Source: Ptychodera flava
Taxonomy: Eukaryota; Hemichordata; Enteropneusta; Ptychoderidae
DNA: 64,000 bases
Direction: 5' to 3'
Assembly (NCBI RefSeq): GCF_041260155.1
Contig: NC_091932.1
Coordinates: 42,172,125-42,236,124 of the forward strand
The translations under genes and the position numbers were made by a program. Numbering within the stretch: position 1 is the stretch's first letter; each line of letters opens with the position of its first letter. Below are positions 1,385-64,000 of the stretch, piece after piece. The notes under the pieces are model-generated. The model had not been told where the DNA came from, did not search any database, and saw nothing but the letters and a program-made list of their open reading frames with translations.

Positions 1385-13408
<12,024 letters not shown>

Positions 13409-15711: not shown

Positions 15712-17769
15712 TAGTCCCCACTTGTAATAGGAGTATTAGTCTTGATGGGGCAGGAAAATGTGGTCATTAAGAAGTATCACTGGAGTGTATATGTTGAGAT
15801 CTATGGGCACATAGGTCTATGTCGTTGTTCCCAATTTGAAACACATGAGGCATGTCTAAGTTATGGTTCTAAATCGGGAAAAAAGATCAGACCTCTAGCA
15901 GTATTGGCCAGCCAAGAAATACATATACGCATTATAAATGAGGTACAAGATGTGACATCTTAAGGTCTAATATCCTATCAAAATTGGAGGGTATAGAACT
16001 TGTGGTTACTGAAATATGCATATATATGTATAATCAAGGTCAAAGGTCATCGAGGTCACATGACATTTTGAAAAAAAAAATTATATTGCTAATTAATCCC
16101 TATATGCCAAAAAATCAGATCTCTAGCTCTATTCGCTTGCCCAGAATTAGATGTGTACATAATTAATGAGGTAAAGCGTGTGTGTCATAAGGTCTCTCCA
16201 TCCTACTAAATACAAAGGACATAGCACTTGTGGTTACTTATTTATTGACATAAACATATATTTTAGGTAAAAGGTCATCGAGGTCACATGACATTTGGTC
16301 AAAAAATTTCTCTCCTATAGTTATCCCTATATACCAAAAATCAGACATCCAGCTCTATTGGCTCGCTCAGAATGAGATATGCGCATAATTAATGAGGTAC
16401 AGTATGTGGCGTCATAAGGTGTCCAATCATACCAAACATGAAGCTGTAGCACTTGTGGTTACCGAGTTATGGACAAATATGTATATTTGAGGTCAAAGGT
16501 CACCGAGGTCACGTGACATTTTGTCAAAAAAATTGTTTTGCTAAGTTATCCCTATATACCAAAAATCAGACCTCTAGCTCTATTGGCTCGCTCAAAATTA
16601 GATATGTGCATAATTAATGAGGTCATAATTAATGAGGTACAATATGTGGCGTCATAAGGTGTCCATCATACCAACATGAAGGCTGTAGCACTTGTGGTTA
16701 CTGAGTTATGGACAAATATGTATATTTGAGGTCAAAGGTCACCGAGGTCACGTGACATTTTGTCAAAAAAATTGTATTGCTAAGTTATCCCTATATACCA
16801 AAAATCAGACCTCTAGCTCTATTGGCTCGCTCAAAATTAGATATGCGCATAAGTAATGAGGTACAATATGTGGCGTCATAAGGTGTCCCATCATACCATA
16901 CATGAAGGCTGTAGCACTTGTGGTTACTGAGTTATGGACAAATATGTATATTTGAGGTCAAAGGTCACCGAGGTCAGGTGACATTTTGTCAAAAAAATTG
17001 TTTTGCTAAGTTATCCCTATATACCAAAAATCAGACCTCTAGCTCTATTGGCTCGCTCAAAATTAGATATGCGCATAATTAATGAGGTACAATATGTGGC
17101 GTCATAAGCTGTCCCATCATACCATACATGAAGGCTGTAGCACTTGTGGTTACTGAGTTATGGACAAATATGTACATTTGAGGTCAAAGGTCACCGAGGT
17201 CACGTGACATTTTGTCAAAAAAATTGTTTTGCTAAGTTATCCCTATATACCAAAAATCAGACCTCCAGCTCTATTGGCTCGCTCAAAATTAGATATGCAC
17301 ATAATTAATGAGGTACAATATGTGGCGTCATAAGGTGTCCCATCATACCATACATGAAGGCTGTAGCACTTGTGGTTACTAAGTTATGGACAAATATGTA
17401 TATTTGAGGTCAAAGGTCACCAAGGTCACGTGACATTTTGTCAAAAAAATTGTTTTGCTAAGTTATCTCTATATACCAAAATCAGACCTCTAGCTCTATT
17501 GGCTCGCTCAAAATTAGATATGTGCATAATTAATGAGGTACAATATGTGGCGTCATAAGCTGTCCCATCATACCATATATGAAGGGTGGTAGCACTTGTG
17601 GTTACTGAGTTATGGACAAATATGTATATTGAGATCAAAGGTCATCAAGGTCACATGACATTTTGTCAAAATATCCGAGATATCTGCGTGAACGGATGGA
17701 CTCACGGATGGATGAACAGACGGACATGACCAAATCTATAAGCTCACTGGACTTCATCCGTGGGGACTA
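15712..17769. repeat. element with TAGTCCCCAC inverted ends carrying eight ~226-bp tandem units
   Basis: TAGTCCCCAC at 15712-15721 faces GTGGGGACTA at 17760-17769. Between them, units of about 226 bp repeat. The ggtcaaagg landmark recurs at about 16038, 16266, 16491, 16730, 16956, 17182, 17408 and 17634 (steps of 225-228, one of 239 from a 13-14-bp internal duplication). Six units contain an exact AGGTCAAAGGTCA. The four central ones (16490, 16729, 16955, 17181) continue CCGAGGTCA, and 17407 has CCAAGGTCA. Most continue to GTCACGTGAC or a one-base variant. Short reading frames here are products of the array. Confidence 0.9.
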
Positions 17770-21505: not shown

Positions 21506-24490
21506 CATGTAATAATCTAAATCTTAACCTGTTGTTTTATATCAGTCATAGACAGTTGGTATTGAATAAGTAAAAGTCTGGGAATGAGAATAACTGCGTG
21601 CTTACTGTTTTCGTTTGCACGGTGGCATTGCCCCAAAGGCAAGTCTGTCCCACACTGCATCAAATTGACCTGCAATAGAACTAGATAAACAAAAAATAAC
21701 ATGAGGTGTGAAAAATAGTTGACAAGACCCATCTGCTACTATACAATAGATGTTTATTCTTCCTAACGTTTAGTCTTGTCAACTATTTTTCACACTTCAT
21801 GCATCCATTATCTACAAGTACCCACTGCAAACTTCACATATGGACTGTGGTTGGACTGACCCACTTGATATTCACCACTAAAAAATAACAAATGATACAA
21901 TATCATAATTTTTTCAGAAGATAACATCGACAGCACATCGGAACCTAACATACCACTATACATGTACATATTCTTTCAAAAGAAATGATCAATCACAAGA
22001 TATTGGCATTGAATGGTGTGTGCACCCTATGCTAACATTTACACATCATTGACTCCAGTCTATTCTCTCCGATACACATTGTAAATTCACATATTACACA
22101 TAATGTGAAATTTCAAAACAATTTCAAGCAATTCTTATTTTTACTCAAAGAGCTCATGCGTAAGAATAAATTAAGGTAGAAAAAATGCACCCCGAGGACA
22201 GACATTCATACTCTACAAATTTCTTAGCTCCGCTGTCAGCGATGTGGACCTTATCTGATTGGTGGATGTGTGGTGGCTATAGGCCATTTGGTGTCTGTCA
22301 ACTTTTTACATTGAAAGCTTCTTCAAAACGGCCAGTCAGATTCCTTTAATTTTTGGAGTACAGGTCTTCAGGAATAACCTTAATCAGATTTGTACACATG
22401 GTCATGAAATATGGATATTTGCATTTTTTAGGCTAATTTTGCTTTTTTGGGCAAAAAATACCTTTTTCTCCTTAATAGCTTGGAGTAAGAAAAATTTCCA
22501 CTTTCTTAGATTTAAAAAAATCAAAAATGACATTTTTCTCCATAGACTTCGCATATGGATGGCAGTCATTTTGAATTTCAAATATCAGTGAGTGTTAGGC
22601 AATTGTTTTCTTTAGCCCAAAACTGTGCACAGTGACCCCGGACTTCTATTCTCAATTTGGTAAGAGAATGATTGAAAGTTTCATTGAGGAAAGTTTTCAG
22701 CTCTTTTGCCTTCAAGGTGCACAGTTTTTCTATCTTAACATTGATTATTGCAAGGTGCAAATGCTACACAGTGCCATCTATTATCCGTGGTACTCCTGCT
22801 TTTGTTTTTATGAAAAAAAGTTGAGGACAACCAGTGAAGCGGACAATACATGTGTCATCAGAGCCAAGAAGTATAGTCAGTTAATATAATTTACAACTTA
22901 CCTGGAAAAGTCAAAGAAATCACAGCAATAAACTTGGATGTTGTGATCTTTGCTCTGAAACAGGAGCAAAATAAGTTTTAATGAGAGACAAATATATTTG
23001 TCCTCAATAAACTATTGTGACAATTCAAATACAACACATTGATAGACTCAAGAAACAAACCTTCAAGCCAAACTTATCAAAAGCTTTTGTTTTTATAGAG
23101 GACAAGATCATGGAAATGTCAGTATGAGATAACAATGGTGTTTCAACAGTATTTTGGGTTTATTATGTGGCTGATATCTCAATTGAAATTAATACTTGCA
23201 TGTTAAAGAATTTTTATGTAAAATGGAAGAATGGGATGTTGGGAATGGCTTAAAACTCAAACTAAGATATGACTGCCATCATTAATAACCTGTTCGCCCC
23301 CATTCCCACTAAACTGGTCCAGAATCACTATTAATAACAATGGATTTGGGCCAAACCATAAGTGGTGAAAGGGTATGACCTTGGGTTATTTTCTCTTTGT
23401 TTTCAAGTTATTTAATCACTTTGGCAGTTCCTTAAGTATTATACAAAGTGACAGAATAATAACAAATAAGGAAACACACGTGAGAGCAATAGTAAATAGC
23501 ATGATTTCACAGTTTGACTAATATTGATCAATGTGTATTTAAGTAATAAGATAATAGAATTTATTATGACAAAGTGACTGTCAATTCACAGTATTGGATC
23601 AGATCTTGAAACAAATTGAATATCATAAATATAAGTATGCTATACTCATTAAGTCTAAATGAAAATGATTCTGGCATATCTGAGAAATGGCTCTGGAAGC
23701 TTCCACAGATGCACAGATGCATGGACAGACTGAATTCAAAACGTACAAGTCCACTTCCAGACTTCATCCAGTGAGGAATGATTTATATCCTCAAATCTCT
23801 GAAGTCTTGAACAAAGGTGATTTTTCCAGTTTTTTGTGAAGTGACTGGTGACTGCATAAACAGGCTTAATAAAGTTTTAGGATCGTCTAACGGTATGGCT
23901 GATGATTTTCTTAGCTAAGAGTGAACTCTAGTTCTCTTGTTCATAGTCTGTACACACCTTCCTTCTTGTGGACTCTCTAAAACAGCAGCAATCAGTGTGA
24001 TAGGATATCAGAGCATGTTGCGAAAAATTTGGAAATGGTCAATAAAACGTTGCATTCTGAAGGTTGCACATGGAGACCGTTCTTTTTTCCTGAATTTTGC
24101 ACAATCCACGTGTAATTGTATCAAATACTGACCACTCACATAAAACTAAGATAGATAAATATTAATTGTTACAAAACGAAAGTACCACTCAGGACTGGAG
24201 CAACAATGCATCGATGTATAGCTTACTTTGAAGATTGTTCCACTTTTCAGATTTTCCATCGGTGACACACTATAGTCCATTTGTTGTTCTTCAATAAAGT
24301 CTTTATTGCAACATCAGAAAACTCAAGTCCAGTGACATCATGGCCAAGATCTGCAAACCTGTATATAGGATCCAAAGGTAGATGTTATTAATCATTTTGA
24401 TGCCATAATTACACCCTCTATGATTGCAGAAATCAAAATATTAATGTGTGACAGCTTCAATTCATTATATTGACAGTGTCTTTGACGTAA

Positions 24491-26529: not shown

Positions 26530-28920
26530 TCATAAGGCGTTATCAGTCATAGCAAGAGTGTAAAAATATTTATAAATTTATCATTATGAATACTGTTCAT
26601 AAAAATTATTTATTTCTGTCGTTATTGTATACTTTCAAAAGAACCCTACTGCACTCGAATCCTGAATGACGATTAGTTTTCATGCAAAATTCAAGCAGTT
26701 GTATTACAGACCCTGTTATAATATATTTATGCTTACAAATATTCAAAATACAAAATAATGTTTCTGTCATTATTGTACAGTTACAAAGGTAAAAGTACCC
26801 TACAGCACTGAATGATGATAAGTATTTATGCCAAACTCACACAGTTATAGCTCAGACCCTCAGAAATATGGTCAATATATAGCAGCAGTAGAATTGCACG
26901 GTAACTTGATGCGCGGTCACTGTACTGCCTCGACAGACTCTTGTAACCTCCACAAATGTAATAATCTCCACAAATGTAATATCAACCACAATTGTAATAA
27001 AATCAACCACAATGTAATAAAAGAGTCAACCATTAATGTAACAACCCGCAACCACAAATGTAATAAACAAATTAACCATAAATGTAATAAAACACAACCA
27101 TCAATGTAATAAACTTGAACTTGCATATGTGATCATTTCTTTATCAATGCCCTGAGTAAATAATAACTTTAATAAGACTAGTGGAATGTTATTGCATACT
27201 TTCCTGAACTAGGTTTCCTTTCCGAAACACAGAATAGAATACTTTGAAAACACTATCAGTAAACGGTGAGGTACCGATCAAAGCGTTGGATAATACAAGT
27301 GGAACAGCAGTTCTAGACACTGATAATTACATAATAAGGAAGCGTCAAAATAACTCGTCAACCAGTGATACCACACAAAGTTTATGACACATGACTCAGA
27401 ACAAATAACAGAGAAATATACAACCTTATAACAGAAACTTACGACACAAAACATGTTGACGAGAACATGTATCCATATTTAAATCTAGTAAAAACAATAC
27501 GAACACTACCTAGAACACAGTAGAACAAAATTAGACATCCTAACATCCCCAGTGAAGGAACAAACTTCAAGTGGGACAACATAGGAATACAGAAAATCTA
27601 TCGATTATTCCACACAATTTATCCACTGAAGGCGAATTTGAGGCGACTGATTAAGAAAGTACGGCAAATTTCGAAAAAAAAACGGCGTTAAAGGATCGTA
27701 GTGTTATACAGTCTCCTCCACTCTGGAGTACAGACTGCACTGACGTTCAGATTACAGCTGTGTCTCGCCATGGCCAATCAGTTTTGTACTCAAAATAGGG
27801 AAACGTAAAATACACTTTCAAATACACAAAACACACTAAACGCAAACAATTAAGATATGAATAATGTGTAGAGTTGCTTTCCTTATTACATAGATAAATA
27901 TTTAAGGGCTAATTCCTCAATTGCAACGACAAAATAGATTTATTACATTTATGGTTGACAAGTATTACATTTATGGGTGATTTTTTTATTACATTTATGG
28001 TTACCATTTATTACAATTGTGGTTGGTGTTTTTATTACATTTATGGGTGATATTACATTTATGGTTGATATTACATTAATGGGTGCACTTTATTACAATT
28101 ATGGTTGATGTTACATTTGTATAGGATAAAGCCCGAGTATGAGGGTTTTATCCGACTTAAAAACTATCGCCCCTAACTGATATATTTTTGTTTTCAATGT
28201 GTTTACGTCAACCGTCCCCTTTGTCAATGTAACATGTTTAGGATATGAATTAAAACTTTTATTTGTGAAATAGCCTTCCAATGTAATGGAACATCCTATA
28301 AATGCCCTAGGGCACATTATATAAATGCCCTAGGGCACAGCAGATTTTTGTTGCAGCTGGTTTCCGCTGTGTTACCAAATTTGAATATTAAAACGTACCA
28401 GATGTCTACAGAATATGACATGTTCACTTTTGATTGGACAGTACTTTACTACGGCGCTGTCATTCGTTTCTTGAATTTGGTGACCAAGGCTTTATGAGTA
28501 AATAAAACACCCTGAATTGAGCACTCTGATTGGTCAATCAACAGTAGATAGTTTTTAAATGGAGGAGGTTACAACTCTAACTGTTCAAAGAGTCTGCCGA
28601 GGCAGTACTGTGACCTTGCATCACTGTTAATTACTGCGCAATGCTGCTGCAACTGCTACAACAGTGTGAATTTGGCATAAATACTTATCATCATTTAGGA
28701 TTCGAGTGTTGTAGGGTACTTTTGTAAGTATACAATAATGACAGAAATATTAATTTTTTATCAAGAATGTTCATACTCGTAAATTTATTAATAACAGGGT
28801 CTGTTGTACAACTACGCAAATTTGGCATGAAAACTGATCATCATTCAGGATTCGAATGCCGTTGGGCACTTTTGTAAGTACTGACAGTTTTTGGATGACC
28901 TCAGTTTTCGGACATTTAAT
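26530..28920. mobile_element. large foldback element with mirrored short tandem arrays
   Basis: The outer arms of about 370-420 bp (about 26530-26955 against about 28560-28920) are diverged inverted copies, for example ggtaaaagtaccctacagcactgaatgatg against catcatttaggattcgagtg ... gggtacttttg. Inside them, 26945-27115 holds repeats of the type aaatgtaataa-nnn-aaccac, and 27945-28118 holds the same unit reversed (ttacatttatggttg). The central 0.8 kb has no recognisable coding sequence. The right arm is interrupted by the element at 28119-28558. Reading frames in the arrays are artefacts. Confidence 0.8.
28119..28558. mobile_element. hairpin MITE, copy 2 (inverted relative to copy 1)
   Basis: Nearly identical in reverse complement to about 10445-10860 plus the gtataggataaagcc end of copy 1, but lacking both internal hairpins. 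It is inserted between the short tandem array and the right arm of the foldback element at 26.5-28.9 kb, so it is younger than that element. Confidence 0.8.
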
Positions 28921-40300: not shown

Positions 40301-43300
40301 CTTTGATTTCCATTTGCAATTTGCTTTTAGATAAAGTTGATAAATGACCTGCCCTTTTCCCAACCAAGTTAATAGAAACAGCTGCTGGAATGAAAACTAA
40401 GTCAATAATGCTAGGTTTTTTAGTCCCCACGGACATCCTCCGAGGGTACTTATGGGCTTGGTCATGCCTGTGGGTCCATATGTCCCTTCAAGCAAATTGC
40501 TCAGAAATGCGACGAGCGATTTCATTCAAACTTGGTACAAGGATCACCACTATGTCATACATATAGGCCGTGGGCTAGAGGGGGTCTACGTGCACCCCAA
40601 AGGATAACAAACCTGTATTTTCAGAACCCTTGGGATCCCTAGAATATGAAAGCAATTTTAACAGAAAAAATATAAGGATGCAATAGGTGTTACAGTCATG
40701 TTTTGAAGGGTACCACAAAATCACGATTTTGCAACCTACATGCATTTTCGTTAAATCTGTCTTCTTGTAAGTCATCTGCTAAGCTTACGTTTTAACATAA
40801 CCTCACTTGTTTGGTATCATTAGAAAGGTAATTTTTTTTTCTTTAAGAGGACATATTGCACTATGCAATATCTTAATTTTTGTGAAATATGACCAAACCT
40901 ACCCAATACCTCAAAATTTAACATCGCAAATTACAGTAAATCTCAAATTCTACCAATTTTTTAGCTAGACATAATACAAAATGCAATGCTTTGTATGGAA
41001 TCTGTTTTATTTGGTACAGGGACATGTCAGAAATATGAAATAGACTTTTAACAGAAAAAATGTTGGGACTCTACAGCTGTAACAGTCATATTTTGAAGGG
41101 TACCGCAAAATCACAGTGTTGCCGACTTGCATGCATTTTTGTTAAAGCTGTCTTCCTATAAGTCATCTGCTGAGCTTATTTTTGAATATAACCTCACTTG
41201 TTAGGTATCATTAGAAAGATACTTTATTAATCTTCAAAATGACATATTGTAATATTAATATCTTGTACACTTTTCATGAAATATGACCAAAACTCACCCC
41301 ATACCCCAAAGTTTACATTGAAAATTGCAGTCATAGCTAAAATCAAATTCTACCAATTTTTTAGCTAGACATAACAAATAAGGCAATGCTTTATATAAAA
41401 TCTTTTTATTTTGTACTGGGGAATGTCAGAAATATGAAATAGACTTTTAACAGAAAATATATTGGGACTCTACAGCTGTAACGGTCATATTTTGAAGGGT
41501 CCCGCAAAATCACAATATTGCCAACTCGCATACTTTTTTGTTAAATCTGTCTTCTTATAAGTCATCTGCTGAGCTTGATTTTTGACATAACCTGGCTTAT
41601 TAGGTATCAATAGAAAGGTAATTTACTGAAACCACTTGTCTGATAGCTTCGGCATACTGGTTTGAGATGACAGGTGCCTTGGAATTGTCTTAACCTGATA
41701 TATTTAATTATGATGAAATCTGCAATTTTGTATTTTGGAGGAATTTTTGCCGTCTTAGTCAAAAATTTTATTTCTCAAAACAACAACACTGATAGCTTTG
41801 ATAATTGGTAGACTTGTTCCCTGGAATGATCTTAATATGATAATATGATACATTAAATTATGATGAAATCTGCAATTTTGTATTGTTGGGGCAACTTTTG
41901 CCATTTTTTAACTTTTTTTTCCACAAAATTCGCTTGTCTGATAGCTTTGACATTTGGTAAATAGGTTCCTAGGAATTATCTGAATGTGATATATTGAAAT
42001 CTGAAAGTTTGTATTTTGGGGCAATTTTTACCATATTTGGCCAAATCATGTGTCTCTAAAAACTGATCGTCTGATTACTTTGGTATTTGGTAGACATGTA
42101 TCTAGGGATGATCTTAATTTGATATGTTCAAATTATGATGAAATCTCCGATTGTGTATGTTTACAGCTTTTTTTGCAACTTTGGGCCATGCCCTCTTAAA
42201 GAGTCGGCTATCAAAGATTTCCACCTTCTTTATCAACACTTACACATGTGTCAAAAATAGTCTCTACATAATATAGCAAGCTCTATTGGCCGCTAGATCC
42301 CTTGTTCAATATTTTTCTGGTCTACCACTCATGGAAACTTATTTATAAGCTCTTGGAGAAAGATAAAAATCACTTTCTTAGTCTTTCGAAAATCGAAAAT
42401 AACATTTTTCTCCATAGACTTCACATATGGATGGCAGTCATTTTGAATTCCAAATATCAGTAAGTGTCAAGCAATTTTTTCTTTAGTGCCAAACTTTGCA
42501 CAGTGACCCCTGACTTCTATTCTCGTTATGGTAAGAGAATGAAATGAAAGTTTCTCTGAGGAAAGTTTTTAGCTCTTTTACTTCAAGGTGCACACTTTTT
42601 AACCTTTATCGTTTGTGCCGATGGTACACAACATCTTTCATCTGTAGTACTCCTGCTTTTGTTTTTATCAAAAAAGTTGAGGTCAGTGAAAGTTGAAAAT
42701 AAAATCAGTTTTTTAAATATATCATCAGAGTCAATGAGTAATCCGTTAATATCATTTACAACTTACCTGGAAAAGTCAAAGAAATCACAACAATAAACTT
42801 GTATGTTGTGTTCTTTGCTCTGAAACACAATCAAAATAATTTTTAGTGAGAGTCAAATATATTTGCACTCGATAAACTATTATGACAATTCAAGATATAA
42901 CACACTGATACACTCAAGAGACAAACCTTCAAGCCAAACTTATCAAAAGGTTTTGATTAAGAGGACAAGATAATGGAAATGTCAGTATGACTTAAAACAG
43001 GATGGCGCTTGAACAGTGTTTCGGGTTTATTATGTGGCTGATATCTCAATTGGAATTAATACATGCATGGTAAAGAATTTATATCCATGGAAGAATGGGA
43101 TCTTTGGAACGGCGTAAGAAGACATGACTGCCATCATTAACAACCTGTTCATCCCCATTCCCACTAAACTGGTCCACAATCACTATTGATAACAATGAAT
43201 TTTGGCCAAACCATATGTGGTGAAAGGGTATGACCTTGAGTTATTTTCTCTTTGTTTTCAAGTTATTTAATCACTTTGGCAGTGCCTAAAGTATTGTACA

Positions 43301-44836
43301 AAATGACAGAATAATAACAAATAAGAAAAACGCACATGAGAGCAATATAAATCGCATGTTTTCACAGTTTGAGTCACATTGATCAACGTGTGTCTGAGTA
43401 ATATAATAGCTCTTATTTTACAATTTATCGTGATAAAATGACTGTTGGATCAGATCTTGAAACAAATATGAGATAGTATACTCATGGAAATTAAGTATGA
43501 ATGAAATCGATTTGGGCATATCTGAGAAATGGCTCTGGAAGCATGCACAGATGCACAGATGCACAGATGCATGGACAGACTGAATTCAAAACATACAAGT
43601 CCACTTCCAGACTTCATCCAGCGGGCAATGATTTATATCCTCAAATCTCATAAGTCTTGAACAGAGATTATTTTTCCAGTTTTTTGTGAATTGGCTGATG
43701 ACTGTGTAAACAGTCTAAAAGTTTTAGTGATCGTCTAACGGGATGGCTCAGATGATTTTCTTAGCTAAGAGTGAACCCTGTCTTGTGGTACACTCCTTCA
43801 TTCTTATGGACTCCCACGAAGAGCAGCAATCAGTGTGATGGACTCCCTAGAACAGCAGCAATCAGTGTGATAGCATACCACAGGATGTTGCTAAAATTTG
43901 GACATGGTCAAAGAAACGTTGCATTCTGAAGATAGCACAGAAACCGTTCTTTTTTTTCTAAAATTTCGTACGATCCATGCATGATTGCAAGGTCAAATAC
44001 TGACCACTGGCATGAAATTAAGATGGATAATATCGTGACAAACCGAAAGTCAATTAAAGGACTGAGCTTGAACATGGCATCGATGTATAGCTTACTTTGA
44101 AGATTGTTCCGCCTTTCAGATTTTCCATCTGTGATACGGCATAATCCATTTGCTGTTCTTCAAAAAATGTCTTTATTGCAACATCACAAAACTCAAGTCC
44201 AGTGACATCATGACCAAGATCTGCAAACCTATAAACAGGATCCAATGACAGATGTTATTAATCATCTTGATGTCATCATTACTTGGACATTTCATGATTG
44301 CAGAAATCAAATGTTAGTCTAATGGCAGCTTCTTCATTAAAATAATATTTTCACAGGAGGGGGTTGCCGGAACTATGCTCAACGGTGGAATGGGAACATA
44401 TAACCAATGCAAACACTCAATCCAAGGTACTCTAGAGAGTGATGAAGTTTAAAAGGTTTGTCGTGCAGTAAATCGTAAAATTTACATGTTCTAGCTATGT
44501 TTACATCATGCATCTAGATATCCTGCGTGTATGCATGCAGACTCCTTCTCGTTAAAAATATTATTTTCATACCGACTGTTGATATTTGACCTATTAATTT
44601 TATCAGCTTAGTGTTGACATCTATAATTTTATGTGAACTTTGTAACGATTATAAGTGATGGCAAGATCTAACACATTCAACAGTAAATTTACCTCTAGGA
44701 AAGGTGGAAGTTTTTAATGCCATGGTGTTGCATCAACATAGCAATTTTACTCACCATTTTAGGTCAATAGATTTTCCACAAAGGGGTACAAATATTTTGA
44801 TCCCTTTCTTTCCTCCAGTAAGCAGATCAATATTAT
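37347..44836 (-). CDS. thiopurine S-methyltransferase (TPMT)-like, right copy
   Basis: SAM-dependent methyltransferase of the TPMT family; the family methylates thiol substrates in the cytosol. Conserved exons, 5' to 3' on the minus strand: 44755-44836 (GIKIFVPLCGKSIDLKW), 44096-44228 (FADLGHDVTGLEFCDVAI ... GGTIFK), 42767-42819 (VYCCDFFDFS), 39504-39578 (GQFDAVWDRLAFGGLPP), 39016-39101 (YSDILVSLMKPGAQCLMLNN), 38014-38058 (GAPYHVPIEYMKEIFG), 37347-37459 (to TAG). Junction phases agree and no internal stop occurs, giving 195 codons. The PLCGK and D-x-V/I-WDR signatures of the family are present. Full-length TPMT is about 240 residues, so roughly 50 N-terminal residues are unplaced; 46726-46810 is a candidate upstream exon. 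Intron 4 carries a 1.7-kb repeat insertion. True substrate unknown. Confidence 0.83.
40431..42180. repeat. TAGTCCCCAC-ended repeat with two tandem families, in an intron of the right TPMT-like copy
   Basis: It begins with the same TAGTCCCCAC end as the array at 15.7 kb. 40600-41640 holds three units of about 390-400 bp (landmark gtcatattttgaaggg at about 40694, 41084 and 41484). 41630-42180 holds four units of about 140-170 bp (tgtctgatagcttt ... gatgaaatctgcaattttgtat). No matching right end was found. Noncoding. Confidence 0.75.
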
Positions 44837-50489: not shown

Positions 50490-51545
50490 TCAAAACAACG
50501 GGAAGCCGCATAGTCTAAAGAAATTCCGAGACATTATCGGTGTAATTTCTGAAACTCCGTCTATGATAGCAGTTTCTGTAAATTGCGTAGCAAATATATC
50601 ATGCTGTTGAAGGTACCATTTCACGTAGCGAAAACAAAGTTCACACGTATTCATTTCGGGACTGTAAGGGGTTGAAATATCAGATCCACTCTCCGGTCAT
50701 TCAGTAGTTGGCGCAAGTTTGTCTCGGCAAAGCGCCCGTGGTGAAAACCACAGTTGTCCATTACCACAGTATCGCGTGGTGATAAAATCTGTTGACCTTG
50801 GTCATCCACCATTTCTAGGGCCTCCTCGAAAAAGTGCACCATTTCTAATCCGTTTGAAGGGCCGTCAAGAATACTGAAGTAACTCACTCCTCGCGCGCAG
50901 TGAAGGAGGTTTAAGGTATAACTCACGTCTGATGTATAACGCTGAACTTCAAACGCACGCTGCCCTATTTGACTATGCCCGTATTGTCTGTTAGCGGTTG
51001 TCCTTTTGATGCCTGCCTCGTCGAAAAAATGAACGCTGAGAGGGTCCAGTTGGGTGATTGCATCAATATACAGCATTATCCTCTGTAAATTCCGTTCAGT
51101 CAGCTGTTCAGCAGGAATACTTTGTATTTCTTGTATGAGTAATTCAGATCTCTCCTGAGAATTTCGTAAATTGTTCTGCATGCTGGGAGAGTCTCTTCCG
51201 TGCAAATGTTTTCACGAAGGAGTTCTGCCCGTATCTCAGAGGCAGTGATCGATGTTTTTTTGAATTTGAGAAATTCGACAAATTCAACTACGTCCGGCAA
51301 GCATTTTGAACGCGGAACTCCGGTATCTTCTGCCGCAAAACGGAACCCGTCCTGGTAAAGAGGGTTATCACGTTCTGAACCGTAGACTTTGGCGTATTCA
51401 GCTGTTCAGCGATCTGACGCACACTGTTTCCAGCCGTAGACAAATCAATAATTTTCAGTCGCATATCGATATTGAGACGGGTCGACATCTCGGCCAGTTG
51501 AAGTTTTCTTTGAAAGATGCAACGGTATTTTGTGTCATGTGACAA
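50490..51545 (-). pseudogene. Tc1/mariner (IS630-like) transposase, frameshifted
   Basis: Three overlapping minus-strand frames together cover a DDE transposase. 51288-51545 has a helix-turn-helix (LSTAGNSVRQIAEQLNTPKS). 51100-51300 is the second helix-turn-helix-like part (ITASEIRAELLREN ... RTIYEILRR). 50651-51205 has the catalytic start (VHFFDEAG) and VVMDNCGFHHG. The last acidic motif YSPEMNTCE lies in another frame and is reached by one missing C in the g-run at 50668-50671 (plus strand). It continues to a stop at 50490. With that change, 38 residues separate the second Asp and the Glu. At least three frame breaks make this copy non-autonomous. Confidence 0.82.
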
Positions 51546-52321
51546 AACGGAGAAAGGTGCTTTTTCTTTTGAGGGGCGTTCGCACTAGGCTGCAGTACAT
51601 TTAGCGTCAATTTAGGTTTAAATCACATTGCGTCAATGTGCAATTTCCACTTACATTTCTAAGTTATAATTGTCTTCACTTAGGTAAAATACTTTTGGTA
51701 TTCTAAATTGATTTTATCCTGAGAGTCGGTGCCGCTGGAAATGCGTTCGACCTAATCACAAAATAGTTTATTCCAGATAAGGAATGATGAGACTTGCCGA
51801 CGGCCGTTTGCTCGTGTGTGAAAGCAGAAAGTCACTGGGATAGCTGGGTAAATTGTCTCTATAACCGAATGTAATTTTATGGACCCTTTTTACTGTGGTT
51901 TGCTATTAAAACCTGTAAGAAAATGCAAAATTCAGGTGCGAGTACGCTATACTTATTCATGACACGGATCCTCCACAAGAGAGACCGGAAGGCACGTATT
52001 CAGTTATTCTGGATATTGTGTTATTATAAACCTCTACAAAACTCATGGTGCTTCGCATCGCAGCATCTCTTTTTACCTCCACAATCGCCGGTTGTACTGT
52101 CTCTATACAATTCAAAAGTTACAAAAATATGCTGAAATGATCACGTCTCCTGGACTCAAGCATAAACTCCTTTATTGTTGTTTGCGTGGATACCACGAAT
52201 GTGGCCAGATGTGAGCCTGGACAGAAAAGTTTTGCTGCCATTCACGTCGCTCATGTTGCCAGCCACTCTATTTGGAAGAAACCACTCATTCACAGAAGAA
52301 GTAGACGCAAACAAAAGGGGA

Positions 52322-55426: not shown

Positions 55427-58400
55427 TTGCTGTTGTATGAAGTTTTATTTGATATAAATGATGGAGTTCAGTTCCTGCCATTCATTTCTGAAAATCGCTG
55501 TAATTACTCTAAAAGCTATACAAGGGGAAAATGTATAGGATTGTTAAAATCCTCCCCCTCCCCCAAAATATGTGCATATATAACTGACTATCATGTTCTT
55601 CTGTTTGTGTATTTCCTCCTGTCAAATAGCTTGTCCCAAGAACAGCGAAAAGCCCTTGACTTGGTATGTGCAGGACATAATCTTCTGATAAGTGGGCCAG
55701 CTGGTAGTGGGAAAAGCCATGTTGTTAAGAAGATTTATGAGCATTTGTCAGCTGCTCATGGAAGGAATAGTATTCAAATAGTATGCCCTTCTGGTGCTGC
55801 CTGTAGTGTATATGAAGATCTCCATGCAAGAGCTGAAACCGTTCACAGCTACTTTGGTCTTGGCCTAGCAGACAAGGCGATACATGCATTAGTCACCAAT
55901 ACAAAGGAGGTGGTTGCAAAAAGATTGCAAGATGTCAAGGTCATCATTGTTGATGAAATATCAATGTTAAGCTCTAGAATTTTTGATATCATATGTATTA
56001 TTGCACAGTCTTGTAGAGGAAATAGTCTGCCATTTGGAGGAATACAAGTCGTTGGTGTTGGTGATTTTTATCAACTCCCTCCTGTTCCAGACTACAATGA
56101 TCCAGGCCAATATGCATTTCAATCGGAGCTGTGGTCATCCACATTTAAGCACTCAGTACTACTGAAGACTGTGTTTAGACAGCAGGGGCAAGGTCAGCTT
56201 CTTCAAGCTTTGAACAGCATAAGAATTGGACAATGTGATCAAACAACTGAACAGTTCTTGAAATCATTAAGGAGACCTTTACCAAACCAAACATCTTCAC
56301 AAGCAGTGCACATTTACTTCACAAACATTGATGTTAACTACCATAACATGTGTGAACTGGACAAAATGCCAGGTCAGTGTCACGTGTTTAAGGCAGTGGA
56401 TGATGGCAACAGACATGAAGTAGAAAAAGCTTGTGTTGCTCCCAAGATCTTGCAACTTAAACAGGGTGCACCCGTGATGCTGCTATATAACTTATCAAAG
56501 GACTTGCACAATGGCAGCATTGGCACCTTTGAAGGGACTGATGAAAATGGGAATCCACTTGTATCATTTCAAAGCAGGGGAATGGAATGCAGTGTACCAC
56601 ACAGAATTTGGACCATCAAAAATGAGGATGGACTTGAAATAGGAAGACGCCAGCAATATCCCCTCAAGCTCTGCTGGGCGGTGACTTCACACAAATCCCA
56701 GGGACAGACACTACCTGCTGTGATTATTCATGCTGGCAGTGAGTTTGTGAGCGGCCAGTTATATGTTGCTTTGTCAAGAGCAAAATCACCAGATAATGTA
56801 CAGCTAACTAGTTTCTCACCAGAGAGAATGCTGCCAGTAAATGAAACTGTGACTTTGTTTTACAGCAATCTCACCACAGATGAAGATATTCCCATACAGT
56901 TCTCATGTTGCAAAGAAGATCAGTCTGACATTGTCAGAGTAATAATGGGAGAAACAAATGAAGTTGATGATCGTGACGAGGATACATTAGTACGAGACCT
57001 GTATGGAGGGGAGGATGAAGATGAGCAAACTACAGTGGTAGATCTTCGAGATGTCTTTGCAAACATGGAAAGAAGAGGAAAAGAATTAGAAGACTTACCA
57101 TGTGATTTCAGTACATCAGACTTTTTAAACAGTCTTAAAGATAACTCACCATATGCTGAAGAAATGAACACACTCTCCTGGGAAATCAATTCACTTATTG
57201 ATGAACTACATCTGGAAGCAAATCAGGAATCACTCTCATTGTTCATAAGAATTCAGTGGTTAAAAGTGTATGTTGAAACCAAGAAAAACATTGAAACAAG
57301 TGACAAGCTGAGAATGAAGAGGACTGAATTTACAAATATGGCAGGCAATGTGCACAGATTGCTGAATGAAGAGAGTCTGAGGAAGGAAGCTGCCTTGCTG
57401 TTCAAAATTTCTGAATCAGAAATGGTCACTGCACACTACACACTTCTCACAAACATGATGATAAAAATACATGATTTACAAATGCATCATCTTGCTACAA
57501 GAATCACAAGCACAACACCACAGGAAGCACCAGAGATCCTCAACGTTGATAGTATGGGAAGTGATGGAAAAGGGAAGATAAGATATGTTGCAGGATGGAC
57601 AGTGAAGAAGGAGTTAGAGAAAAGTAGGAAGTATATACGGACCTGTGTATCATCTGCAGACAGAAAAGTACGCGACAACACTAGAGTTGAATACCAGTGT
57701 AAGCAAGCTCTGGATTACCTCACCGTACCCGAAAGTGTAATTCATAGAGACAGTAACTACCCAGAAACCCTAAAGGTTATTGATTGCCGTCAATACGCCA
57801 AACACGGTTTAATACATGTTACTGACAATACATATTTATTTTTTCTTAACCTGGAGCAACAGCGAATTAAACTCATGAACATTCACAACTTCAAGCAACA
57901 GGCAGAGTTTCTGGTGCAAAATGTGCAAGAACAACTACTCCAGAACAGTGACCTGTATAATCAGTTTGAAACTACATATATTGCAAGTCAGGATAACACC
58001 TTCAGTGAAGAAACCATCCAGCAAGTGTTTGCAAGACTTATCACACGATACGTGCGTATGGGTGCTGGGCAGTTTTTGAAGGACTTCAGAAGAGAGTGGC
58101 AAATAAAGAAGACAGAGGCACACAGGAAAAAAATCGCAATAAGGACAGGAAAAAAAAGAAAAGCTGAAGCCAAGATTCCCCTTGATGAAATCATACAGGA
58201 CAGAACACCAGGCAGGATCAAATCACACCACCAGCTCCATACTATGATTTCGCATCATGCTGATATCTTCGCAACACCCATATACAAAAAGGAAGAACTG
58301 ATGCAATTAGCTGAGGCGTATGACATTATTGTGCCGAGCAAGATCGTCAAGCAAGAGTTATCACGGCTCTTGAAAGAGAAGATTGATGAAGTTCACTGTA

Positions 58401-58498
58401 TCCCTAATGCGTGGGTGTTTGATAGATTCAATGTGCAGCCAATGGACAAGGACAGCGAGACCTCTGGCCGGATAGTAATGAGACTACAGAGATCCTAG
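55427..58498 (+). CDS. Pif1-family DNA helicase with long unclassified C-terminal region
   Basis: An unbroken 1023-codon frame. Superfamily 1 helicase motifs occur in order: Q-like LSQEQRKAL (68-76), Walker A GPAGSGKS (90-97), VCPSGAA, TVHSYFGLG, Walker B IIVDEIS (173-179), GDFYQLPPV (212-220), FRQQ (250-253), and the terminal block SHKSQGQTLPAVIIH ... YVALSRAKS (421-454). These are those of Pif1/RecD-like 5'-3' helicases, which are also the helicases of Helitrons. Residues about 480-1023 are not helicase: an acidic stretch (511-540), helical segments, KIRYVAGWTVKKELEKSRKY (717-736) and a basic run KKIAIRTGKKRKAEAK (901-916). The first ~67 residues are probably intron read-through. A good acceptor (tttcctcctgtcaaatag) ends at 55629, just before the helicase homology, and there is no other nearby in-frame ATG, so an upstream exon is likely. 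No Helitron Rep domain is seen. A GTAAGT follows the stop by 4-5 bases. It converges with the transposase gene 1 kb downstream. Confidence 0.85.
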   Translation: MLLYEVLFDINDGVQFLPFISENRCNYSKSYTRGKCIGLLKSSPSPKICAYITDYHVLLFVYFLLSNSLSQEQRKALDLVCAGHNLLISGPAGSGKSHVVKKIYEHLSAAHGRNSIQIVCPSGAACSVYEDLHARAETVHSYFGLGLADKAIHALVTNTKEVVAKRLQDVKVIIVDEISMLSSRIFDIICIIAQSCRGNSLPFGGIQVVGVGDFYQLPPVPDYNDPGQYAFQSELWSSTFKHSVLLKTVFRQQGQGQLLQALNSIRIGQCDQTTEQFLKSLRRPLPNQTSSQAVHIYFTNIDVNYHNMCELDKMPGQCHVFKAVDDGNRHEVEKACVAPKILQLKQGAPVMLLYNLSKDLHNGSIGTFEGTDENGNPLVSFQSRGMECSVPHRIWTIKNEDGLEIGRRQQYPLKLCWAVTSHKSQGQTLPAVIIHAGSEFVSGQLYVALSRAKSPDNVQLTSFSPERMLPVNETVTLFYSNLTTDEDIPIQFSCCKEDQSDIVRVIMGETNEVDDRDEDTLVRDLYGGEDEDEQTTVVDLRDVFANMERRGKELEDLPCDFSTSDFLNSLKDNSPYAEEMNTLSWEINSLIDELHLEANQESLSLFIRIQWLKVYVETKKNIETSDKLRMKRTEFTNMAGNVHRLLNEESLRKEAALLFKISESEMVTAHYTLLTNMMIKIHDLQMHHLATRITSTTPQEAPEILNVDSMGSDGKGKIRYVAGWTVKKELEKSRKYIRTCVSSADRKVRDNTRVEYQCKQALDYLTVPESVIHRDSNYPETLKVIDCRQYAKHGLIHVTDNTYLFFLNLEQQRIKLMNIHNFKQQAEFLVQNVQEQLLQNSDLYNQFETTYIASQDNTFSEETIQQVFARLITRYVRMGAGQFLKDFRREWQIKKTEAHRKKIAIRTGKKRKAEAKIPLDEIIQDRTPGRIKSHHQLHTMISHHADIFATPIYKKEELMQLAEAYDIIVPSKIVKQELSRLLKEKIDEVHCIPNAWVFDRFNVQPMDKDSETSGRIVMRLQRS

Positions 58499-59496
58499 TA
58501 TGGTAAGTACTTATAATAAAACATCTTTTTAATTCTCTCTGTGCAATTGAGTCATCTATTCATTTACTTTTTCCAAAAAATAAGATCTCAGTATAAAAGT
58601 AAAAACTTTTGTACTTTCAAATAATTTCAGCATCCCTTTTGAAAATAGAAGATAAAGACAAATTAAATGTCTGTCCTTCATTTTACACCAAACTAAATTG
58701 TAAAGTACAGGGATTGCTGCCATGGCTTTCAAAATTACTGCTAAATGACATCATGGCAGGGGAAAGCTACTGGATTAAGTTGTTTTTGCAACAGTACTTG
58801 ACTAAGGCTTCTCGCATTTTCCATAATCTAAATCTACCATTAGACTACAAATAAAAACAGTATTGCAATCACAAATATTTAAGATATCAGACGCTTTGGC
58901 TGTAGCATTTCCATTTATATCTTTTGTGTACGTTCTCTGTGTGAATACAATGTAAGTGGCGCACCAAAAATCATACATACCTTGTTTGAATTTGAACTTA
59001 GAAAGCAAAAAATAAACCAGACCCCTAATCAATTAATCAAAAAAAGTCATTTTATTTCAAATTTCAAATTCTTATGAATATATCACCAAATTCAAGTCAC
59101 AGATCGACAGTAGAGCGTGTGTCTGTGGTACATGTATAATGTACAGTAAAACTCGAGTTTACCACACGCTTCATACGAAGTGTAATACAAAGAATAATGA
59201 CTTAGACCTATCCATAAAATGAAACTATGACCAAAACATCTAACAGACTTAAAATAGTTACTTTGCTTTAAAATTGCTCAGCCTGATACAATATAATTCA
59301 CCATAATTGACAATGATTGTACAGCTTAGAGTGTAATGAATTGACTTGCAAATCAACCTCTCAAGTAACTCATGAAAAGTACCTGTATGCAGATGAAAAA
59401 AAAATTTCCAGTAGTCATGTTTACATAATATCCAACATGAATGTGTAATACAGTCCTTGTGAAAATTGAAGGGAATCTGTGTCAGCAATTCATAAA
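58499..59496. other. gap between the convergent helicase and transposase genes
   Basis: aataaa at about 58515 could end the helicase transcript. A weak frame at 58630-58854 follows a plausible acceptor (aataatttcag) and might be an extra 3' exon. Otherwise AT-rich with no recognised feature. Confidence 0.4.
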
Positions 59497-62400
59497 TTAA
59501 AAGGTTACGCTAGCATTACCCTTTCTACTGATAGAGTTTTGTCCAAAGATTATAGTGTTTTGAGATTTACAGTACTTGTCATAGGTAGGGTTGTTGTTTT
59601 GACCATGGTGTGATCTAGCTTGACAAAATATATTTTCGACAACGTCTTGGTTCACAATGCCAGGCATTATTGTTGAACCTGGGAAGAGATCAAGTTTATA
59701 CTTACACAGTTGTTCAAAGCCAATAATGTGTGATTGTAAATCAAAATAAAGCTTGCTGGAAATGAAGTGTGTAGGCTGTTCTGATTTATGCCATGTGTCA
59801 AGGTAAGTCAAAAAATTGCGTGAGTCTTTTAGCCTTGTGTCTGCAGTGTCTCTCACTGGATTTTTTATATCATTTACGAAAGATACAAGTTTGCTGGTGT
59901 GTGACAGTAGCTGTATTGACCCGTTCAGATAAGAGACATCCTCTCCTCTTCGTTCAATTAGAGATCTTTTGTAGGCCTGTATAATCAGAGAAAAGATTTG
60001 AGTTAGTGTAACAGAAATGATAACTATTATGCTCAGTAGATTTGACTTCAGCTGTCAGTACTGCTCTTGTTTTCAGTACAGCACAGTACAGTACAGTACA
60101 TGGACTCGTGATGTTTGATATTACAAATAAATCACTCACAATAAACCATATTCATTAAATTTTTCTCCCCCTGCTCAACTGTAAACTCTATTTCCTCTTT
60201 TAGACCGTTTATACCATTTATGTTTGTTTATAGAGCTGCTAATGTAATACTTGAACTCTAGTAATAAAGACAACAAATGTCTAATGCTCTTGACATTGAA
60301 ATTAGTTCTACTCAATTTCTCACTGCTTATGTCTAAGACATTCATTGAATATATAACCATGTTTGTGATACACTTCTCCAAGGTTCATTGACATTTTTGG
60401 TAAAATAGGGGAATTAATGTATGCATCACCTGCATAGCGAACAGCATTTTTCTATCCAGCACGTCTTCTGCCAGGTGGTTCCTCATTTTCGACTTTGCAT
60501 TTAGGTCAAAATGTTCCTCTGTTAGCCGTTCATGCACCACAATGGAGTTTGCCCTTTGATCCTCTGTGTAAGTATTGTACCAGTGGTTCCATACTATCTC
60601 ATGGCCGTTGTACTTTAATACAGATTTCCCTGTTCTTCTGCTTTTTTCAAGGTTGTTCCTGATTTTTTTAATGTTATGCTGCAGTAACAAAGGACAAAAC
60701 AACAACTGTTAAAATGGATCGAAGGGGAGGAGCTCAGGACATTATCTGCTGATTGATCAGTGCCACAAGGATAAGCTTAGTTAATAGTTTAGCAGCATCC
60801 TTTCGAGATTCAACCATGTGTGGAAAAGACATTCATAAAAACTCTCAGAGAAGTAAATATACTATCGATTGTGAAAGCCGATAACTAAACACCTGGCTTG
60901 CTGATGCACATGAAGCTCACACAGGAAGTCTGTTTTTTGTCTGCATATTTAAGATAAACGACTGAAATGAAACAAATGCCAAATGTCAGATCTTAAGGCA
61001 TCATCTTGTTGAAACTATCATCTGACCTACAAAATCCTTTGATCAAAATTAATGGCTAGATTGTGACATTGAACATTTATAAAGATTAGTGCATGGCAAC
61101 GATAGAATAACATTGTTGTATTGAATGCTTTGGCTGTGCTATACTTTATTTCAATTTTTAAACCTGTCTCTATTGTACTCTAAAAGATCGCAATCACCGT
61201 TTTTGTGGGTATAATTGTTGCCAATACAGAGTCCTCAGCTGTGCACAACATATAAGGTTGGCCAGCTACTCATCTTGTTGCAGGGTATTGCTAGAACCTC
61301 AAATGTGAAAATTTCTCTTGGTGAAGATTTCTTGGTTTACTGGCATGAACATGTACTTCAGTGGTTGACTATACATTTGTCATTGAAAGATTTTGTGAAA
61401 AATATTGTTGCTGTACAGTAGCTGTGACATTGTGTTTTTTTTGCGATAATCACTTCTGTGTAATATAATCATATTTCAGTGTCATAAACTAGAGTTTCTT
61501 GTTAACAACGGAAAAAATCATGGACATTGGAGATGAATCATAGACACTTGTGTGTAGCAGCGTGAGTGTGGTCACCATTTTTTCCGTAAGCAATTATCCA
61601 TGTCATTTCATGTACACAGATTATGTTCACAAGAAAAGTACTACTTTTATGATCATGCAGAGGTAGATATGAATCAGAATGTGTAGTTCATATAAATTCC
61701 AAAATTTTCTGAAAGTGCACAAAATACAACCATATTTTCATATTATGTACAGAAAAAATACTTACCTTTGGATCCATAATAAATATCATTTTGCCTCCAG
61801 TTAGAGGATTTCTTGTTGTGAAATTACTATCCCTTGGTGTTGTTTCTTTGAAATGGAGGTTGATGAAGCCACGATTACTCTCACCCCCATCACAGCAAGA
61901 CCAGTACACACTGAAAAAAAAATTCCTCGGGTCAGATATGATTTACTAAATCCGTGTATTTCAGAAAATTTGGCGTTGATTTGTAGAGTCGTGGATATCT
62001 ACATATATGTGATATCAATGGCCAATGGCACAACAAACCTGCAACTTTTTCAAAATAGTTTCATATATTCTTTTCTATACAAAGAAGAATTTGATAATAT
62101 GCAATTCAATTCAACAATGTTGGGGACTAAGTGTTTTGCCTATCAACAAAACAAATCTTGAGTACTGCTAGTATTGCCAATCAAAATGTAAGTCAGCTCT
62201 GAAAATCCAGATTCTCTCATACAAAGAAAACTTTGTTTACTAATATGCATCTTTTATATATAACCTGTGTTAACAGGTCGCACACAAGGTCTTTCAACTT
62301 GCTGTGTGGAAAATAACAGGAAACCATATTTGATATTTAGAACTCAAAAGTTACTGCTGTTTGTCTATTTCAGTCTCTCTATGAACTCTTAATCAAAATA

Positions 62401-64000
62401 AAATTGAATACAGTATTTTGTTGACTTTTCTGGCAAACTATCACCACTTTTTAACTTTGTAATCTGCAATACTCACTGGAAACCAGCTTTCAGAAGCATT
62501 TGCACACCATCCCAGAAGACTCTGTATAGAATTGCTGGGGAGCATTCTTTCGTTGGAAAATGGGCGACAGGATATCTAAATCCACCATCTCCAATAAACA
62601 CAAACTGAAGTACGTGCGTAGCAGTCTGTACATTGATTTCACCTACAACGAAAATACCAGGACATTTCTACATTATTTTGAATGCCTGAATACATTAACA
62701 GGTACAGCAAGCAGCTAGTTTTGCTAGTATCATCACAGTCATTGTTTTGTATTGGTGTTGCATCATATTGGCTTCGATGTCAGCACCAGACAGCACTTCA
62801 TACAGTCTAGTGTTGCAGATTTGTAACAATATACTAGCTCTACTGATTGTGACCTATAAGAAAGAATTATGACAAAGCATTTAAGAGATCAAAACCTATT
62901 TCATCTGATGAAAGAAGCACATATACATGTAATTGTCTCACCATCTGTACTGAAGATTACCACATGGGACACCACAAATATTTGTGTGTAGACCAACATG
63001 GTTCGCAGACTGTGAAGGAAGCAATGTACAGTGTATACGAGTTTGTGCTTTTGTAAGTGTGTCAGTGTTTGTTACCTTTCATCAGGTGATCCAAATCCTC
63101 TGCAGCATCGCCCAGTGACACTACACCGACTAATTTAGACTTTCCTTGACTCTTAATAAGTTGCAAGTCAGACTGAAAAGGAAAAAATCATATTAAGTAT
63201 TTTTGGTTGAAAGTATCCATAATGGCCTAGAAAAAAGACATGTTATTTTAAGAAAAATTAGTAAAAACAGTGTCTTCATAATGGTCAGCAGCTTTGTTTC
63301 TATTGAGATGGACTCCTAAATATCTCCGGTATCAATTGATCAATCTGGAAAATAAATTCTAAAACACAGGAACTTATATCAATTAAAGGAATTGGTTACA
63401 ATATATGGGGTATCGTTGAGGTATTTTTCAGGTAACCTTGGAGTCCCACCTTCGTTAGATCTATTGTGGCAGGAAATCAATCCATAAATGCAATGATTTT
63501 GACACATTTCTTTGTACAATATCCATATGTTTTTCACCTGAATTGCCATTTCGTCGAAACACAGGCCTCCATATCTATCAACATCCTTCAGCCCTTTATC
63601 ATCAGCTGCTCTTTTCAGGTCTTGCATAGATGCAAAAGTCCAACCTGCAAATTAATTTGATTATAAGATTATACCATTCACTACGACATATTTTTTCAAC
63701 TATACCTATGAATGCCAAGATGTACAATGTATCTTGTCGCCTCGGACACTTCTCTATAATATTTTTTTATGACAAAACTCTTATTAAAATTTGTGATGTT
63801 ATTTTGGCATTTTGATAATTGCAAATGTAAAGGAAGGGAGGGATGCCATATCTCATGCAAAAAGTCAATGCACATAAGTGTTTAATAATGATTAGCTTAC
63901 CTGGTTCCTGTGGGTTTTTATTTTTCTTGTAGACAAGGGTTCTCTTACTCGGCAAAATTAATACTTTGGCAAGTTCGTCATAAGCATGGGGGCTCCTGGA
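59497..64000 (-). CDS. P-element/THAP9-type transposase, 5' end beyond the window
   Basis: Seven exons, 5' to 3' on the minus strand: 63901->64000, 63538-63644, 63076-63172, 62477-62642, 61766-61910, 60430-60678, 59497-59976. All are GT-AG and phases fit; they encode 447 residues and a stop. The order matches the catalytic core of P-superfamily transposases: AYDELAKVLILPSKRTL, GLCFDEMAIQ (first Asp), SLGDAAEDLDH, FRYPVAHFPTKECSP with LYRVFWDGVQML, VYWSCCDGGESNRGF (second Asp), MIFIMDPK joined to HNIKKIRNNL (like the DPPHLLKxxRNNL signature), and NQDVVENIFCQARSHHG...NNPT (the Asp-x-x-Glu pair). The four acidic positions known for Drosophila P transposase therefore look conserved. It ends about 50 residues after the Glu, shorter than P or THAP9. 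A THAP DNA-binding domain, if present, lies beyond 64000. It could be an active element, a recently dead one, or a domesticated host gene; no break was seen. Confidence 0.85.

Follow-up and report, generated by a model that had tools for sequence, protein, structure and literature searches.

What does it mean that a gene for a Pif1-type helicase and a gene for a P-superfamily transposase converge on less than 1 kb of shared spacer? Such a pair, with the helicase on the plus strand and a spliced transposase on the minus strand, lies at one end of a 64,000-nucleotide stretch of the hemichordate Ptychodera flava (contig NC_091932.1, positions 42,172,125 to 42,236,124), hereafter the window, in whose own numbering all coordinates are given. 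The first-pass annotation had seen here a Pif1-like reading frame and a THAP9-type transposase gene, both intact and about 1 kb apart, and had proposed that they form one helicase-bearing P-superfamily element. The distance proved accurate, with 998 bp between the two stop codons (58499..59496). As for the element, we lean towards a modified version of that proposal, in which the two genes would be components of one helicase-bearing P-type element whose transposase C-terminal domain (CTD) has moved onto Pif1. We regard a two-component element as the best explanation because the genes are adjacent, because their domains are complementary, and because their closest named relatives are shared, those of the helicase coming from P. 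flava and those of the transposase from P. flava and Glandiceps talaboti, both enteropneust hemichordates.

A Pif1 helicase and its C-terminal half

The plus-strand frame (55427-58498) holds 1023 open codons. Its helicase core (residues 69-490, 55631..56896) carries a 2B domain and all five of the helicase motifs, namely GPAGSGKS (residue 90), DEISM (176), GDFYQLPP (212), SHKSQGQT (421), and YVALSRA (446), and it matches PF05970 in a Pfam scan (E 1e-24) and the PIF1 structure 5o6b in the PDB (E 4.5e-73), Helraiser being a far weaker match (E 2.6e-12). The remainder of the protein, residues 545-1023, matches no Pfam family. The predicted model of this tail nevertheless folds like the CTD of P transposase: in a fold search over 973 chains the single outstanding match was to the P superfamily, it covered the entire target domain, and it was backed by motifs occurring in the same order. 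The conserved motif blocks were placed around invariant columns of the tail alignment with the P sequence already seen, a choice that was not blind.

As described in a review, the CTD of P transposase is all-helical, is joined by a flexible linker, lies between subunits, and contacts both transposon and target DNA; a basic helix reaches out to the target, and the domain as a whole is described as acidic (PMC7776569). The helicase tail opens with a conserved all-helical region (residues 545-707, 57059..57547, plus strand, as are the following segments), and the end of its last long helix is basic (58064..58198; 45 residues, net charge +8, K+R 31%). The tail core is near-neutral (net +3) ahead of this basic helix, and a preceding linker is acidic (net -15 over 73 residues). 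The C-terminal helical segment (58199..58495) is SAP-like by eye only and has no Pfam match.

The tail is conserved in five other proteins, each time preceded by helicase sequence: P0002 and P0003 of P. flava (56% and 32% identical to the window protein), P0004 and P0048 from ENA contigs, and P0005 from a metagenome-assembled genome of Thiodiazotropha, whose contig is probably host DNA. It was absent from 94 other proteins, of which the helicase search had supplied 42 and the transposase search 52 (best E 0.049). P0004 additionally ends in a PHD finger (residues 828-879).

The frame as such does not make a complete gene. Residues 1 to ~66 find no match in the closest relative, the earliest methionine is residue 180, downstream of Walker A, and an AG at 55629 ends a pyrimidine-rich stretch and looks like an intron end, which suggests that the conserved exon begins at 55630 (55630..58498, residues 69-1023 of the frame plus the stop). 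Because of this intron-like AG and the lack of any methionine before residue 180, an upstream exon with a start codon is needed. The earlier description of an intact Pif1-like reading frame thus holds for the open frame and its helicase and not for the gene.

A transposase without its C-terminal domain

The minus-strand gene runs from 59497 to beyond 64000. Its seven visible exons are in phase, have GT-AG borders and no internal stop, and encode 447 amino acids, so that the claim of an intact, spliced P-type gene stands for these exons and not for the whole gene, whose 5' end lies outside the window. From the exon cut by the window edge (63901..64000), the gene proceeds through an exon with the motif CFDEMAIQ (63538..63644), in which we take the first catalytic Asp to lie, two exons matched by the family profile (63076..63172 and 62477..62642), an exon with the motif CCDGGESNR (61766..61910), presumably bearing the second catalytic Asp, and an exon for the TNP-like GTP-binding insertion domain (60430..60678), to a last exon (59497..59976) that encodes RNaseH_C with NQDVVENIFCQ...NNPTYDKY and ends, at KGNASVTF and the stop, with no CTD. 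Both the RNase H-like catalytic domain and the GTP-binding insertion domain that define the P superfamily are found. In Pfam, TNP-like_RNaseH_C scores over the cut-off (E 5.7e-6), and RNaseH_N (E 0.0092) and GBD (E 0.0039) are weak and under it; a profile of 14 relatives matches all seven exons, and it also hits 6p5a, the P transposase of Drosophila (E 2.9e-11). The protein is 71-75% identical to proteins of P. flava and Glandiceps (91% to P0100, over only 8% of the query) and 44-48% identical to the best cnidarian proteins, which cover 99-100% of the query. Two P. flava transposase models, P0049 and P0080, are 96.6% identical across a 59-residue overlap, which at the sequence level suggests recent copies.

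The stop codon directly follows RNaseH_C, leaving no CTD on the same chain, and the tail profile, run over the window, found no match apart from the helicase frame. Among the 52 relatives, whose C-termini were located by a motif pattern, the last motif was reached in 31 (the other 21 were left out), and all 31 terminate 28-78 residues later, which is too little for a CTD to fit. The transposase therefore lacks the very domain that the adjoining helicase seems to carry. Since the distant relatives P0098 and P0099 are also without a CTD, this lack alone does not prove a partner; still, a CTD-like domain present on the helicase and absent from the transposase and its informative relatives ties the two genes better than adjacency alone.

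At the other end of the protein, the THAP9-type label found no support: no THAP domain was seen in ten scanned relatives (P0049 among them lacking its N-terminus) or in the precomputed Pfam annotation of all 52 hits. Instead, profiles of the N-termini of relatives point to an RFX-like winged helix. For hemichordate and coral relatives, the top PDB match was the RFX1 winged-helix domain at E 7e-4 (with one row, the fifth sequence, picked by eye); for four animal proteins it was again RFX1, at E 0.013; and five metagenomic N-termini, picked by eye with truncated or less alike ones left out, matched RFX5 at E 1.4e-6 and RFX1 at E 0.0013. When three hemichordate proteins were profiled over their whole length, RFX was not listed, nor did it appear in single-sequence Pfam scans of relatives, where the sole match in the head was DUF5560, under the cut-off. 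From these sequence comparisons, the head of this P-type clade seems to be an RFX-like winged helix rather than THAP. The relatives placed in the clade are P0055, P0080, P0100, P0069, P0063, P0064, P0066, P0067, and P0070.

One element or two genes

If the two genes do form one element, the mechanism could be that of a split P transposon, a more specific proposal that we put forward tentatively, at somewhat less than even chances. The minus-strand gene would supply the catalytic subunit, with its RNase H fold and GTP-binding insertion and no CTD, and this subunit would probably bind DNA through an RFX-like head; the target-DNA-gripping CTD would have been relocated onto the Pif1 helicase encoded by the convergent gene, where it would act in trans and thereby build the helicase into the transpososome. 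Pif1 helicases move with 5'-3' polarity. The helicase could then act on a single strand running along the CTD, and might aid disassembly of the complex, filling of the staggered ends, or repair of the donor-site gap.

Several observations weigh against one element. A scan for terminal inverted repeats (TIRs) with target site duplications (TSDs), the latter 8 bp long in P-superfamily elements, gave best scores no higher than shuffled controls reached (100 and 20 shuffles), the right end lying outside the window, and the spacer between the stop codons likewise holds no TIR/TSD pair beyond the shuffle range. The helicase is encoded by one long exon and the transposase by many. The transposase is present in twelve named cnidarian species and in Glandiceps, for which no Pif1-CTD protein is listed, in searches that did not score every candidate and of which one missed three known members. 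By its length, the contig of P0002, the closest helicase relative, corresponds to none of the 52 transposase hits, that of P0003 being compatible with two; this comparison tells little, because the genome has 23 chromosome-scale scaffolds. The Tfx hits and the natural-window count point the same way. Moreover, no second locus with both genes was found. Of the original proposal of one helicase-bearing element, the joint membership has thus gained a complementary CTD-like domain on the helicase, its THAP part is unsupported, and no ends were found in the window.

An alternative is a Pif1-CTD gene of P-type origin that is now separate, either as a domesticated host family or as one of two genes in a different P-type element, its place beside the transposase being due to chance or to such elements inserting near each other. 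We hold this to be unlikely, albeit a rival to be reckoned with: P. flava has the two diverged copies P0002 and P0003, the closer of them on the contig without a corresponding transposase hit, and the frame of the helicase is both long and free of damage. Yet this reading demands a coincidence, namely adjacency within 1 kb to a transposase that belongs to the same superfamily and lacks a CTD, and the distribution of Pif1-CTD is patchy, being confined in our searches to P. flava, one contig of the Thiodiazotropha assembly, and two ENA contigs. Viral contigs gave 30 helicase loci, matched in the helicase part only, together with 120 pattern matches for the transposase and 12 for the tail, none of which was confirmed; contigs of prokaryote genomes yielded 190 loci, of which 80 were kept, again with matches in the helicase part, one of them extending to residue 594. 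Across the 110 loci, neither the tail profile nor the transposase profile had a match at E <= 1.

It is rather improbable that the genes are two unrelated neighbours, with a fold match that reflects a mere common helical arrangement and a helicase unconnected to P elements, as the sole outstanding match in the fold search fell on the superfamily of the neighbouring gene, over the full target domain and with ordered motifs. Helitrons encode Pif1-like helicases, and Helraiser is among the PDB matches of the core; we nonetheless rejected a Helitron fragment as highly improbable, given the far better match to PIF1, a C-terminal half without a Pfam family, and the absence of a Rep (HUH) domain from the best 25 of 28 Pfam rows, which cover the long frame only, without the upstream exon.

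Known systems and other features of the window

Compared with P elements and THAP9, the element that we favour would share the RNase H catalytic fold, the GTP-binding insertion, RNaseH_C, and a helical CTD with a basic helix, but would carry this CTD off the transposase, on the adjoining Pif1 helicase, and its relatives have an RFX-like head with no THAP found. Helitron RepHel proteins likewise bring a Pif1-family helicase into a transposon; here no Rep domain was seen and PIF1 is closer. The IstA/IstB pair of IS21, in which IstB is the ATPase subunit, follows a similar two-component logic but is bacterial and relies on an AAA+ regulator rather than a helicase, and we claim no homology. In that system, the separate ATPase subunit cooperates with the transposase (PMC11208146). 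A same-chain CTD was modelled in zebrafish THAP9 (PMC10983969). By analogy, the precedent for a helicase in a cut-and-paste element is KolobokH and Kolobok-1_CCri, which carry a RecQ helicase, on the complementary strand in Kolobok-1_CCri (PMC9587614, available sections). These too are DDE transposons with an accessory helicase, but they belong to another superfamily, their helicase is RecQ and not Pif1, and those sections do not describe a separate helicase that bears a transposase domain.

In the literature searched, we found no description of such a pair of helicase-CTD and P transposase, and if the linkage holds, the arrangement would be a variation on P-superfamily transposons. P elements serve as a model both of cut-and-paste transposition and of donor-gap repair, a process that relies on host helicases; the host factors that repair P donor breaks include the Bloom helicase homologue (PMC7776569). 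An element that brought its own helicase, connected to the transposase through a common domain, would allow a direct test of how DNA cutting is linked to repair, and would imply that a CTD is able to function in trans, while an RFX-type head replacing THAP would broaden the definition of a P transposase.

Elsewhere in the window, pieces of a Tc1/mariner-type transposase occur in differing frames at 50651-51584 (minus strand), with DDE_3 and a Sleeping Beauty-like helix-turn-helix under the cut-off; judging by its reading frames, this copy is probably broken. Protein kinase exons at 6172-7586 (plus strand), MAPK15-like by eye, probably belong to a host gene. Self-comparison showed no copy of the 54-64 kb stretch elsewhere in the window at E <= 0.01. 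It revealed a tandem array with a unit of ~226-228 bp (15881-17674), and the window further holds an inverted pair of 445-bp repeats of 97.5% identity (10443-10887 and 28116-28558) and a direct repeat of ~2 kb at 81% identity (22479-24467 and 42352-44339).
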